Shown here piece by piece: positions 16,876-20,723 of a stretch of 20,723 nt of DNA. Within the stretch, counting starts at the first letter, position 1. Each line of letters opens with the position of its first letter. This stretch comes from a virus. Made by a program: the position numbers and the translations under genes. The stretch is taken from positions 1 to 20,723 of the IMG/VR virus record IMGVR_UViG_3300015164_000009. One strand, written 5' to 3'. The notes beneath the pieces were generated by a model that saw nothing but the letters and a program-made list of their open reading frames with translations, ran no database searches and had not been told where the DNA came from.

Positions 16876-18438
16876 TTAGAAACAACAATTCACTTCCGCG
16901 GGAAGTACTTGAATCTTTGCATCATCTTGTTGAATTATTTGATTCCATGCTACTACATACTCACCATACAATTCCAATACTTTTGGTGCATAAGTCAACA
17001 AGTCTAATATTCCATCAGTATTATCTCGTCTCATTGGATTGAATTGCATTATCTGCAAAAATACTTCAGACTTGCATTCCGGTGCGATGAAGATTTCACC
17101 AGAGGATAGTCCTTTAAACATAGTCAAGATACGGGAGTTCTTACTGAATCCTCCAGGATATACTTCAACGAATTCTAGTCCTTCTATATTCATCTGCTCA
17201 CATATGAATTTGAACCAATATAATAATGTACTTTGATATGCTACTGATTCACAACAGATCAGTCTGCAATTTTTACTAATTGCAAATTTCAATGCTTCTC
17301 GTATTGTATCACCTGGACTATACCTTGCTTCCAATACTTCGCGCAATACTGGAAATCCACTGAATACTTCGAAATATCCAATTGCTACTGCATCAGAATT
17401 AATCTTACCACTAGAAGGATCAATAAGGATAAAGTTACCGACAGGAATATCTCCATCACGGTAGGGTAATTCTGGTAATTTACTGAGATCAATGAGATGA
17501 TTTTGGCTTGCAGTTTCATCATTTAATACCTCAGCATAGAATACTTCAGGTCTACCCATTGATAGATCATTTTCATATTCTTTAATCAATTGCTTGATTG
17601 GTTGCAATTCTTCCCATAATGAAGAACCATCGGCAAGAATTCCACCAGCGATGAATTTGACCCAATTAGGATTCTTTTTAAGTTTTCTAAGGATTGAGAA
17701 TTTAGTAGGATACATATTTCCTACAAAAATAAATAAACAACCATGAGGCGATTTAGCTTTCATGGCAGTACCCATCATTTCACTTTCTAGTGTCTCAGAT
17801 TGAACTTGACTTTCTGCACATAGTTTTGACTGAATATCATCAAAAAGCATCACATCAGGACGCTCATTTTTCAATGATACACCACGAATTATCTCTACTG
17901 TACCTGCCATGAGGGTAATATTTCTTCCTCTGAATCCGAATTTCTTTAAATCCAGTCGATCTGTTTCTAGTCCTAATCTCCAATCACCAAATGTTTTTCT
18001 TGTATTTTCTTCATTGAGCATATCTGCCACATCAGCAATTATATTATTTGCTTTACCTTGATTTTCACATAATACCAATATGAATTTCTTTCCAGTAAAC
18101 AAAATACAATACAGTATAAACAATTTCATCAACATTGTTTTACCAAAACCACGCGGTAATCCCAATGCTAATTGACTGAAATCACGGCCGCGGCCTGCAT
18201 AGTCTAATAACCAATCCCACACTGCAAGGAATACTGGTGGAAAACTGTATTGATATATCGTAGGCATTGCAAGACCTGCCAAGAAATCAAGAGATTTCTT
18301 GCATAATGCAACTACTTGATCTGCATTGAATGATGCCTCAGTTACACTGGAAGTATCTGGTGCATTCACACCATCAGTAGTTTTCCAAGCATCTAATGCT
18401 TCTACTGAATCGAATCCTAGTTTATTCAGCAGGCTCAT
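16876..18438 (-). CDS. terL: Terminase large subunit (packaging ATPase and nuclease), 520 aa
   Basis: The ATPase and nuclease domains of the DNA packaging motor are visible. Walker A is LPRGFGKT (94-101) and Walker B is VMLFDD (196-201), followed by a coupling motif near FVGNMYPT (238-245). The nuclease half has FILIDPSSG (337-344, Asp340), LICCESVAYQS (393-403, Glu397) and DGILDLLTY (475-483, Asp475), consistent with an RNase H-like metal site. It should bind the portal and cut and pump DNA. The ATG overlaps the stop of the 63-aa ORF (ATGA). N-terminal residues 1-60 look like an added helical region. Confidence 0.9.
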   Translation of the reverse strand: MSLLNKLGFDSVEALDAWKTTDGVNAPDTSSVTEASFNADQVVALCKKSLDFLAGLAMPTIYQYSFPPVFLAVWDWLLDYAGRGRDFSQLALGLPRGFGKTMLMKLFILYCILFTGKKFILVLCENQGKANNIIADVADMLNEENTRKTFGDWRLGLETDRLDLKKFGFRGRNITLMAGTVEIIRGVSLKNERPDVMLFDDIQSKLCAESQVQSETLESEMMGTAMKAKSPHGCLFIFVGNMYPTKFSILRKLKKNPNWVKFIAGGILADGSSLWEELQPIKQLIKEYENDLSMGRPEVFYAEVLNDETASQNHLIDLSKLPELPYRDGDIPVGNFILIDPSSGKINSDAVAIGYFEVFSGFPVLREVLEARYSPGDTIREALKFAISKNCRLICCESVAYQSTLLYWFKFICEQMNIEGLEFVEVYPGGFSKNSRILTMFKGLSSGEIFIAPECKSEVFLQIMQFNPMRRDNTDGILDLLTYAPKVLELYGEYVVAWNQIIQQDDAKIQVLPAEVNCCF

Positions 18439-18626
18439 ATATCTTTGTCAATTCCATTGTAATTATGTCCTATTCTCTGTGCTGGTTCCTTACTCTCACT
18501 AAATACACCCAGAAGTAATATTCTTGCAGCAGCTTTATTCGCTGCCAGCAATTGTTTCTTCTTGGCCTCAACCTGCGCCATTTCTGCTTCTTTCTCTAGT
18601 ATCTTCAATGGCAAGTTCATTAACAT
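18435..18626 (-). CDS. Small charged helical protein, 63 aa, overlapping the terminase small subunit gene
   Basis: It begins MLMNLPLKILEKEAEMAQVE, continues with AKKKQLLAANKAAARILLLG and ends GHNYNGIDKDI. AAGGAA four to five bases before the ATG is a good ribosome site, although it lies inside the upstream gene: the two overlap by 59 bases in different frames. The stop overlaps the large-terminase start (ATGA). It may be a packaging accessory protein or a linker for coupled translation. The ATG lies in a run of seven A bases (minus strand), which could also be a slippage site. Confidence 0.6.
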   Translation of the reverse strand: MLMNLPLKILEKEAEMAQVEAKKKQLLAANKAAARILLLGVFSESKEPAQRIGHNYNGIDKDI

Positions 18627-19161
18627 TTTTTTCCTTAGATAGCTTTTCTAATGCATGGGATTGTATTGTTAGCAGATTTTGCTCGTTCCCTTCTGATCCT
18701 ACTGTAACAACTTGGCCTTGAATATTTGTCTGAAATTTGTTTATAATCTGTACTGGGACTACCAGTTGTATCACTGCTTGTTTTTCAATCATTGCTTCTG
18801 GTGTGCTGGCCCCGCGCCTTTTTGCATTATTAATTACCGCAATTGCTTTAATTATTTCCATTGGACGATGCATTAATGGAATACAGTCATCTATTAATTT
18901 TTTAATCAATACATCTTCAGCACTGTCATATGCATCATCGCGATCATTGTGTTTTGCTAGATTTTTGTACCGCAATTCTGCTACTTTTGCAGCAAAATTC
19001 TCATCAGACAACAGTTGACTGATTCTTGCCTTACTTATTCCTAAACTATCAGCCACCGCAGTGGGTGCAATACCACTACCTAGCAGTTTCAATGCTCTTT
19101 CATCGGTAATACTAAGCAATGGGGCCGGGGTGTTCATCGCAGTGTCATTCATTACCTGCAT
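18568..19161 (-). CDS. Terminase small subunit-like protein with helix-turn-helix, 197 aa
   Basis: Residues 20-50 form a helix-turn-helix: ERALKLLGSGIAPTAVADSL then GISKARISQLLSD, the DNA-binding form used by small terminase subunits. The middle is helical (DSAEDVLIKKLIDDCIPLM, RPMEIIKAIAVINNAKRRG), suited to ring formation, and the tail has a beta segment (IQLVVPVQIINKFQTN) followed by a charged region. The position, first in the late block and just before the large subunit, supports the assignment; a DNA-binding regulator is the alternative. AAGAG four bases before the ATG is the likely ribosome site. Confidence 0.75.
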   Translation of the reverse strand: MQVMNDTAMNTPAPLLSITDERALKLLGSGIAPTAVADSLGISKARISQLLSDENFAAKVAELRYKNLAKHNDRDDAYDSAEDVLIKKLIDDCIPLMHRPMEIIKAIAVINNAKRRGASTPEAMIEKQAVIQLVVPVQIINKFQTNIQGQVVTVGSEGNEQNLLTIQSHALEKLSKEKNVNELAIEDTRERSRNGAG

Positions 19162-19270
19162 TATGCTCTTTATAGCATCAGGACTCAGGGGAAGTTAGTT
19201 TCTTTATGCCAAATCTAGCATTTAGGATACACGCGCCATAGGAACTCAAAAAGGCTTCCATCCCCCGGCA

Positions 19271-19367
19271 GTTAGTGAGTGCTTACTGCGGAATGTTAGT
19301 GAGTGCTTACACTGACAAGGATGCAAGGATGATTCAGCGCCTCGATGTGAGTACTTACACTGACAAG
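19271..19367. repeat. Three spaced copies of a near-palindromic 12-mer, 24 and 48 bases apart
   Basis: GTTAGTGAGTGCTTAC occurs at 19271 and 19295; the third copy reads GTGAGTACTTAC (19347-19358). Copies two and three are followed by ACTGACAAG. GTGAGTACTTAC is a palindrome except for one pair, as expected for a dimeric regulator site. Spacings of 24 and 48 bases keep both helical face and reading frame. Operators, replication iterons or a short repeated peptide are all possible. Confidence 0.6.
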
Positions 19368-19395
19368 TAGCTGACTGGATACCTGCTAGGACATG

Positions 19396-19647: not shown

Positions 19648-20262
19648 ATGTTGTATCCAGTGATAGCGAGTAAAGACCTTGCCAAGACCATTCCTGAAGG
19701 AATGACAGTGTTCAGTGTTTCAAGGAATGATGGTAAGAAAGGAAAGAGCGGGATTGTCTGTGTCGCGCCAGGAATTAGCGAAGCGGTGCGGAATGTGTTT
19801 GTGTCCAGTGCTGAGGGTGTTGCGTTCGTGCAAGATCAAATGGAATGGCTGAAGTCCAAAGTCATCAGTGCCATTCACGCGAAAGGCAATACGGTGCATG
19901 ACGAGAATACAGGTATTACTGCCATTCTCGCGCAAGCCAGACTGGAAACGGAAAGCCAGAGAATGACCAAAGAGGCAATCGAAGTCTGGTTCGATGCTGA
20001 TTTGGCTCCGCTGGTTGCAGGTCGCATCACTGCCAAAATGGTTGGCATTGCGGCAGACAAGGTAGAAAAGCTGGTCGCAGGGTACAAAGGGAAATTCGCC
20101 AGTCTGAGCGGCAGAGATGTTTCCCTTGCTCCTGAAGTCAAGGCGCAGATGTTGAAAGCATTGGAACTGCTGCCGGAAGATTACGACCATGTAATCGCGG
20201 TCAAGGTAGCTGAGAAGCTGAATAGCATCAGTGAGGCGACAGAAACACTTGCGGCATTGTAG
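19648..20262 (+). CDS. Protein of unknown function, 204 aa
   Basis: I choose ATG 19648 (MLYPVIASKDLAKTIPEGMT); AGGAG ends nine bases upstream, whereas the longer frame starts only at a GTG (19609). The N-terminal 60 residues look beta-rich (TVFSVSRNDGKKGKSGIVCV), and from about residue 60 the chain is helical and charged (GVAFVQDQMEWLKSKVISAI, ILAQARLETESQRMTKEAIE). There is a short beta/helix stretch RITAKMVGIAADKVEKLVAG near residue 130, and the tail is helical (LKALELLPEDYDHVIAVKVA). No catalytic motif or membrane segment is visible. Base composition is GC- and CpG-richer than the late block. The ribosome leader (AACAGGAGACTAGAACC) resembles that of the next gene, so both may belong to one early or middle group. 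Confidence 0.75.
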   Translation: MLYPVIASKDLAKTIPEGMTVFSVSRNDGKKGKSGIVCVAPGISEAVRNVFVSSAEGVAFVQDQMEWLKSKVISAIHAKGNTVHDENTGITAILAQARLETESQRMTKEAIEVWFDADLAPLVAGRITAKMVGIAADKVEKLVAGYKGKFASLSGRDVSLAPEVKAQMLKALELLPEDYDHVIAVKVAEKLNSISEATETLAAL

Positions 20263-20358: not shown

Positions 20359-20723
20359 ATGCATGAAATTGAAAAGTATGCATTAGCAGACAAGCTAATG
20401 CGGGAAGTGTGGCAGAATTATAGTGTGGTATATGGAGTAAAAATGCCAAGCTATCCGCAGTTTGATGCGACTAGCAAGGCAATGGGAACCGCAGGGTTTT
20501 ACTATTTCAACAGCCGCAAAGTCTGGATTAATCTTGCGTTCTATCAGGGTGGTGATACAACAGACTTGCGTGAAACAATAGCGCATGAGTTGGCGCATCA
20601 CTTGTGCAGAATGATGTTTCCAAATGCGCCACAAGCACATGGCCCACAATTTAAAAACATCATGCAAAGTATTGGCTATGATGGTAATAGATGCCATAGT
20701 ATGAATGTTGCAATGGCAAGGAA
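20359..20723 (+). CDS. SprT-like zinc metalloprotease, N-terminal part, cut by the right window edge
   Basis: The frame opens at ATG 20359 with AGGAG nine bases upstream and runs for 121 codons to the window end. H76-E77-L-A-H80 in AHELAHHL is the HExxH zinc site, followed by H94 in AHGPQFKN, the third ligand in the H-G-x-x-F-K arrangement of SprT/Spartan proteins. Upstream, VWINLAFYQ and TDLRETIAHELAH fit the family's strand-helix order. SprT-like proteins are zinc proteins; Spartan cuts DNA-protein crosslinks, but the role in phages is unknown. A C-terminal zinc ribbon would lie beyond the window. Confidence 0.85.
   Translation, partial: MHEIEKYALADKLMREVWQNYSVVYGVKMPSYPQFDATSKAMGTAGFYYFNSRKVWINLAFYQGGDTTDLRETIAHELAHHLCRMMFPNAPQAHGPQFKNIMQSIGYDGNRCHSMNVAMAR

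Follow-up and report, generated by a model that had tools for sequence, protein, structure and literature searches.

Nucleoid occlusion in Escherichia coli involves the TetR-type protein SlmA, for which ChIP provided a 12-bp binding consensus, GTGAGTACTCAC, and 50 chromosomal sites, none of them in Ter, according to a review (PMC3116907). SlmA bound to SlmA-binding site (SBS) DNA is described as antagonising FtsZ assembly (PMC4117426), and tandem or paired SBSs carried by multicopy plasmids are reported to block E. coli division together with SlmA (PMC3573117, PMC4117426). In the plasmid experiments described, cells holding a two-SBS plasmid and a SlmA expression plasmid were extremely filamentous, and colony formation on an SBS plasmid was blocked at about four-fold SlmA, i.e. 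above its native level (PMC4117426). The SBS oligonucleotide given for SlmA in vitro is AAGTAAGTGAGCGCTCACTTACGT (PMC9974302), and the primer listed for E. coli SBS17 displays the same outer repeats around another centre, real SBSs being therefore degenerate (PMC4117426). In Caulobacter, MipZ is said to fill a role similar to that of SlmA (PMC3116907). Phage-borne SBS arrays were named in none of the titles and abstract openings among the matches listed from open-licence PMC articles.

The DNA analysed here, hereafter the window, is the whole stretch of 20,723 nucleotides of a viral record. Its gap between the leftward terS (open reading frame up to 19161) and a rightward gene (ATG at 19648) holds three palindromic 12-mers, read on the plus strand with start-to-start spacings of 24 then 48 bases (Table 1). 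An earlier note made from the same letters had pointed to these copies at 19275, 19299 and 19347 and to the ACTGACAAG directly following palindromes 2 and 3; all are present as described. Dinucleotide shuffles (n = 400) gave a mean of 0.07 matches to the pattern GTNAGYRCTNAC per window and zero pairs within 100 bp, and the whole 20,723-base record contains no further match to this pattern beyond the three copies, which are a genuine array. The divergent gene flanking the array had no PHROG match and no Pfam match above the cut-off. Further right, a SprT/metalloprotease-like gene (20359-20723, with HELAHH; PHROG 87, E 0.0025) is cut by the right edge of the window.

Table 1. Palindrome array of the window and its surroundings (window positions)
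Feature	Position	Strand	Sequence or match
terL, large terminase	16876..18438	-	PHROG 38, E 4.5e-38
terS, small terminase	18568..19161	-	PHROG 16503, E 3.9e-5; N-terminus HTH-like by eye
Conserved core, presumed genome end / cos-like element	19223..19266	-	GGGGG ... CCTTTTT ... GCGCG ... TATCCTA
SBS-like palindrome 1	19275..19286	.	GTGAGTGCTTAC; 20-mer 19271-19290 GTTAGTGAGTGCTTACTGCG; 2 mismatches to GTGAGTACTCAC
SBS-like palindrome 2	19299..19310	.	GTGAGTGCTTAC; 20-mer 19295-19314; 2 mismatches to GTGAGTACTCAC
SBS-like palindrome 3	19347..19358	.	GTGAGTACTTAC; 20-mer 19343-19362; 1 mismatch to GTGAGTACTCAC
Divergent 204-aa gene	19648..20262	+	function not assigned; flanks array's other side

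Searching with the large terminase matched 58 viral loci. In the 50 loci, window included, that had sufficient upstream sequence, the density of GTRAGYRCTYAC (at most 2 mismatches) at 600-1400 bp upstream of terL was about fivefold that of the remaining sequence (1.27 vs 0.25 per kb). Likewise, GTNAGYRCTNAC with at most 1 mismatch occurred within 260 bp beside the conserved core in 19 of 67 loci vs 19 of 1094 control windows, these 67 core loci deriving from 82 reduced via shared 12-mers, with the core placed by hand in 8 of the 82. Copies were mostly clustered: of the 61 exact copies in 20 records with arrays, 59 lay within 200 bp of another and 2 were isolated, the reversed-pattern control giving 1, and in nine whole records clusters accounted for 24 of 27 copies, two of the three singles standing at the same place upstream of terS (G003 and G012). 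The stretches of 10 named relatives contained no array, and DNA searches in named phages returned no match for the window stretch, for one array flank or for one array (the latter by blastn). In G328, the array region appears twice, slightly different, near either end of a single 39.8-kb phage contig (C1:1697-1745 and 39665-39709), perhaps reflecting an assembly running beyond the genome end.

Copy number and spacing differ among the relatives. Counting exact copies only, the 11 adjacent pairs of the window-family loci (the window's two included) are spaced by 24 to 70 bases, both orientations of the palindrome occur, and the DNA outside it is not kept. The majority word of the 26 exact copies, whose positions had not been preselected by the two-palindrome pattern described below, is GTAAGYACTCAC, one mismatch away from GTGAGTACTCAC, with a flank, TAAC, kept on the terS side only. 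The palindrome was retained in relatives, a point that the earlier note had proposed to check, but its 24-base spacing is not general. That note had also raised a 25-codon leader peptide (19293-19370, MLVSAYTDKDARMIQRLDVSTYTDK), whose frame is open in the window as it stated. In relatives the palindrome is kept and the frame is not, and only 3 of the 11 spacings are multiples of three; with both orientations in use and variable surrounding DNA, the peptide was rejected because frame and spacing are not kept, and we give it almost no credence. That the palindrome recurs in a constant position, with variable spacing and flanks, is what its proposal of a dimeric DNA-binding protein would lead one to expect, and this part of the proposal probably holds, in contrast to the iteron, phage repressor operator and peptide options attached to it.

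The same palindrome was recovered far beyond the window's relatives. A search for two palindromes close together, in which one copy per locus had position 3 fixed as G and position 6 as T, retrieved at least 120 viral stretches; those among the matches listed include 119 new loci, 96 of them distinct. Among these listed matches, a single one (L082) has the window-type terminase, 38 loci (30 distinct) encode an epsilon15-like TerL, and 33 (26 distinct) a second TerL family whose nearest named-host relatives are Caulobacter phages. In all the listed loci of both families (38 of 38 and 33 of 33) the array lies upstream of terL and transcription runs away from it. Again among the matches listed, 34 of 38 epsilon15-like, 23 of 33 Caulobacter-phage-like and 9 of 11 window-type loci have a G-run no more than 60 bp from the array, towards the terminase. 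Three TerL families that are unrelated to one another thus have the palindrome upstream of their terminase, often in 2-6 copies. A less biased search with the 20-bp palindrome alone again yielded at least 120 viral stretches, of which 97 were new loci and the rest already known ones. Among these 97 listed loci, a second 12-mer lies within 150 bp in 36, and none so near in 61; in 33, one of four queries matched a TerL, in some cases weakly (down to 25% identity), with the site upstream of it in 33 of 33 (32 distinct) and a G-run in 23. Other palindromes occupy comparable places: L201, L205, L213, L255 and L275 display additional ones beside their SBS arrays (e.g. TTGTTGCA-N-TGCAACAA-like, GCACCA...TGGTGC), and a phage devoid of SBS-like sites (L397:1900-2130, MW202483) has a ATGTTTACATAAACAT-type array that immediately precedes G-rich DNA, on the upstream side of the terminase genes.

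The majority 12-mer of the 359 phage copies from these 119 loci (among matches listed) is GTGAGTACTCAC itself, partly by selection, since the search prescribed the G and the T of positions 3 and 6 in one copy per locus. Outside these fixed positions, the extended 20-bp consensus of the other families, GTWAGTNAGYRCTNACTWAC, has outer flanks GTW/WAC that the search left free (among matches listed), and it fits the in-vitro SBS oligonucleotide at 20 of 20 positions. A centre-swapped 20-mer used as control retrieved 14 viral stretches vs at least 120 for the phage 20-mer, and within the 119 array loci 0 vs 129 (among matches listed). At the two variable half-site positions, Watson-Crick combinations amounted to 127 vs 156 expected over the 359 copies (among matches listed); this lack of excess rules out a hairpin and indicates a site in duplex DNA. 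The window itself departs further from the model: its copies differ from GTGAGTACTCAC by 1-2 bases. Its best 20-mer (palindrome 1) has 6 mismatches out of 20 to the in-vitro SBS, the next best places in the window having 7, and copies 1 and 2 carry GTTA on one side, with TWAC on the other side in none of the three. As this 20-bp measure barely beats background, the case for SBSs in the window relies on the 12-mer and on its family. Overall, the sequence comparisons make it likely that the sites are SBSs, a confidence that we lowered because the majority word of the window family is GTAAGYACTCAC and a single flank is kept.

On its terminase side the array adjoins a conserved core, 50-135 bp away and upstream of terS, in which a G run, CCTTTTT, a stretch often containing GCGCG, and TATCCTA follow one another; in relatives it continues with CTAAACTTTTT, a piece that the window does not have. 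A distantly related phage, Polaromonas phage Tiera (33% identity in terL), has a linear record ending in ...TGTATCAA and starting with TAGGCC...CTAAACTTTTT. Joined together, these ends give the core, cut about at TATCCTA, and the end of the record aligns at about 19222/19223 of the window. PhageTerm was run for genome-end determination in the Tiera paper, whose section on this phage does not name the packaging type. Contigs ending within 60 bp of the core numbered 4 of 65 vs 0.58 expected (after exclusion, from 73 contigs, of the 8 in which the core was not located). The joined Tiera ends reproducing the core and the contig ends exceeding expectation are our reasons for taking the core as the probable genome end, of cos-like type, which would place the array 50-135 bp inside the presumed right end. 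Against this assignment, records of PaP2 type begin elsewhere than at the core, a close PaP2 relative is reported as terminally redundant, and for PaP2, PaMx41 and Tiera a comparison of pieces from both ends of the record revealed no terminal repeats. Alternatively, the array may sit where it does just because a compact genome has its principal non-coding stretch there.

Such a position raises the question of a packaging signal, in which the palindromes would be cosB- or cosQ-like sites for TerS or for a packaging cofactor. They adjoin the presumed genome end, three TerL families have them upstream of their terminase, and TerS presents an HTH-like region by eye. Against this, the palindrome is optional, being found at 19 of the 67 core-bearing loci, the core is retained where it is missing, the HTH regions of TerS look alike by eye with and without it, and the terminases that share it are unrelated. 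TerS sites were rejected on account of this optional character, and a packaging role appears improbable. Iterons of a phage replication origin would account for the spaced repeats and for the A/T-rich stretch that lies beyond the G-run in one family; yet no common initiator was found across the array-bearing families, and in Tiera the record ends at the adjacent core, leaving this origin very improbable.

A more serious competitor is an operator array of another TetR/AcrR-type regulator, from host or phage, controlling the divergent early promoter. The palindromes lie between divergent genes, and the same stretch is rich in other sites: a palindrome matching TGANAATNATTNTCA, which we take to be the Fur-box consensus, occurs with at most 2 mismatches in 30 of 67 loci, within 260 bp of sequence beside the core, vs 22 of 1094 control windows, and SBS-like and Fur-box-like sites stand together in 10 of the 67. 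The region beside the core looks like a place where several host proteins would bind, and for this reason control of a neighbouring promoter stays among the rivals. Fur-box-like palindromes of TGAGAATNATTCTCA type were seen about 17-48 bp upstream of the core in L054, L166, L092, L060, L018 and others. The bacterial side offers further arguments for an operator, as 76 of the 85 stretches with the two-palindrome pattern across 257 Gb of genome sequence from bacteria and archaea are actinobacterial by title, and palindromes lie near TetR-like genes weakly similar to SlmA in G032, G038 and G042 (77.7, 77.3 and 49.1 bits). The latter, of GTWAGT...ACTWAC type (G032:C1:2128146, G038:C7:125261, G042:C27:34097), are possibly operators of a related regulator; the actinobacterial group comprises paired AGTGAGTNCTNACT-type sites in Streptomyces, Actinomadura, Saccharothrix and others (L313-L396).

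Several observations go against this operator. The AGYRCT centre of the phage sites is specific, as the centre-swapped control indicates, copies of unrelated families have the G-run on the same side, the sampled chromosomes have no excess of sites, and no common phage regulator was found. By eye, no common DNA-binding protein was recognised in 14 records and the window (phmmer, ORFs of at least 50 aa), nor any DNA-binding candidate when three array-bearing records and the window were compared with four records without exact copies. An operator of a phage repressor was rejected, since the carriers have no recognised common phage-encoded repressor; the iteron and repressor options of the earlier note gained no support, no DNA-binding protein common to the TerL families having been recognised by eye. 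Taken together, we regard an operator of another regulator as rather unlikely, although less so than packaging sites or iterons.

Host genomes also bear on the question of SlmA. One array-bearing phage contig, the epsilon15-like L386, lies in a betaproteobacterial MAG (G028). Of 60 genomes from the family to which this MAG belongs, 52, itself included, encode SlmA with a score above the curated cut-off, vs 1 of 14 control genomes, and a SlmA of this family matches solved SlmA structures, including a 21-residue segment compared with 4gct. On chromosomes around the MAG, SBS patterns showed no excess in sets of 299, 120, 60, 60 and 274 bacterial genomes: 4 single matches were counted in 298 genomes (MAG left out), the 120 genomes gave fewer than the reversed control, and no single genome stood out in the sets of 60, 60 and 274. 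An operator belonging to the sampled host family or class was rejected for want of site excess in these five sets. Sites may be few or degenerate on the sampled chromosomes, or the hosts may lie elsewhere.

Considering these results together, we favour, with slightly better than even confidence, the interpretation of the array as phage-borne SBSs next to a packaging-start element, by which host SlmA would be recruited and division blocked. The sites, their recurrence in place and sequence across unrelated phage families and their match to published SBSs are its basis, along with the SlmA genes of the MAG with the array-bearing contig and of most of its sampled relatives; from these we infer binding, activation, division block and phage benefit. 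Several observations weigh against this interpretation: the deviating copies of the window and the majority word of its family, the lack of SBS excess on the sampled chromosomes, the proximity of one TerL family to phages of Caulobacter with its MipZ, the lack of arrays in the 10 named relatives and of named phages among the blastn matches, the 61 of 97 listed loci with no second copy nearby, the extra SlmA of the plasmid experiments, and the Fur-box-like sites, which would equally suit a regulatory region of general kind. Host SlmA would bind the phage palindromes and, once there, antagonise FtsZ polymerisation; by analogy with the described plasmids, an action of the sites through SlmA on FtsZ seems somewhat more plausible than not. 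As the phage genome multiplies, the increasing number of sites would draw SlmA off the nucleoid onto phage DNA, Z-ring assembly would be blocked, and the infected cell would not divide through replicating phage DNA. Three sites on an assumed tens of genomes per cell would exceed the roughly 50 sites of E. coli. If, as under lambda-type packaging, the terS end were packaged first, the array end would be the first to enter the next cell. Neither SlmA as the likely binder nor the site beside a genome end was foreseen by the earlier note.

More generally, and more tentatively, unrelated aquatic phages could use SBS arrays beside their genome ends, by DNA alone, to turn the nucleoid-occlusion guard into a division block on entry and multiplication. 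If true, this would represent a strategy of host takeover that relies on cis DNA and not on a phage protein; the SBS plasmids already offer its laboratory analogue, and the reason why phages block division would become directly testable. Phages that may engage SlmA could also be recognised by this sequence signature, and further clusters of palindromes near phage ends, the Fur-like boxes among them, could by extension be landing sites for host proteins.

Compared with known systems, the array resembles the chromosomal SlmA sites of E. coli by its palindrome, GTGAGTACTCAC, and, in the other phage families, by the outer GTWA/TWAC repeats of the in-vitro SBS. It differs by the 1-2 bases separating the window copies from the consensus and by its arrangement, the phage sites being grouped in a segment of about 150 bp next to the genome end, whereas those of E. 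coli are scattered outside Ter. With the plasmids pUC-2xSBS and p2SBSK it shares two or more SBSs on a multiplying replicon, but it is natural phage DNA, and the plasmid effect came with extra SlmA. Lambda Kil and other FtsZ-inhibiting phage proteins have the same presumed aim, a block of host division during infection; in the present case, the phage protein is replaced by a DNA site, which would act through a protein of the host. Finally, lambda cos, with its cosN/cosB layout, also combines repeated protein sites with the genome end and terS, but the array of the window lies across the presumed cut from terS, is optional within its family and is common to phages with unrelated terminases.
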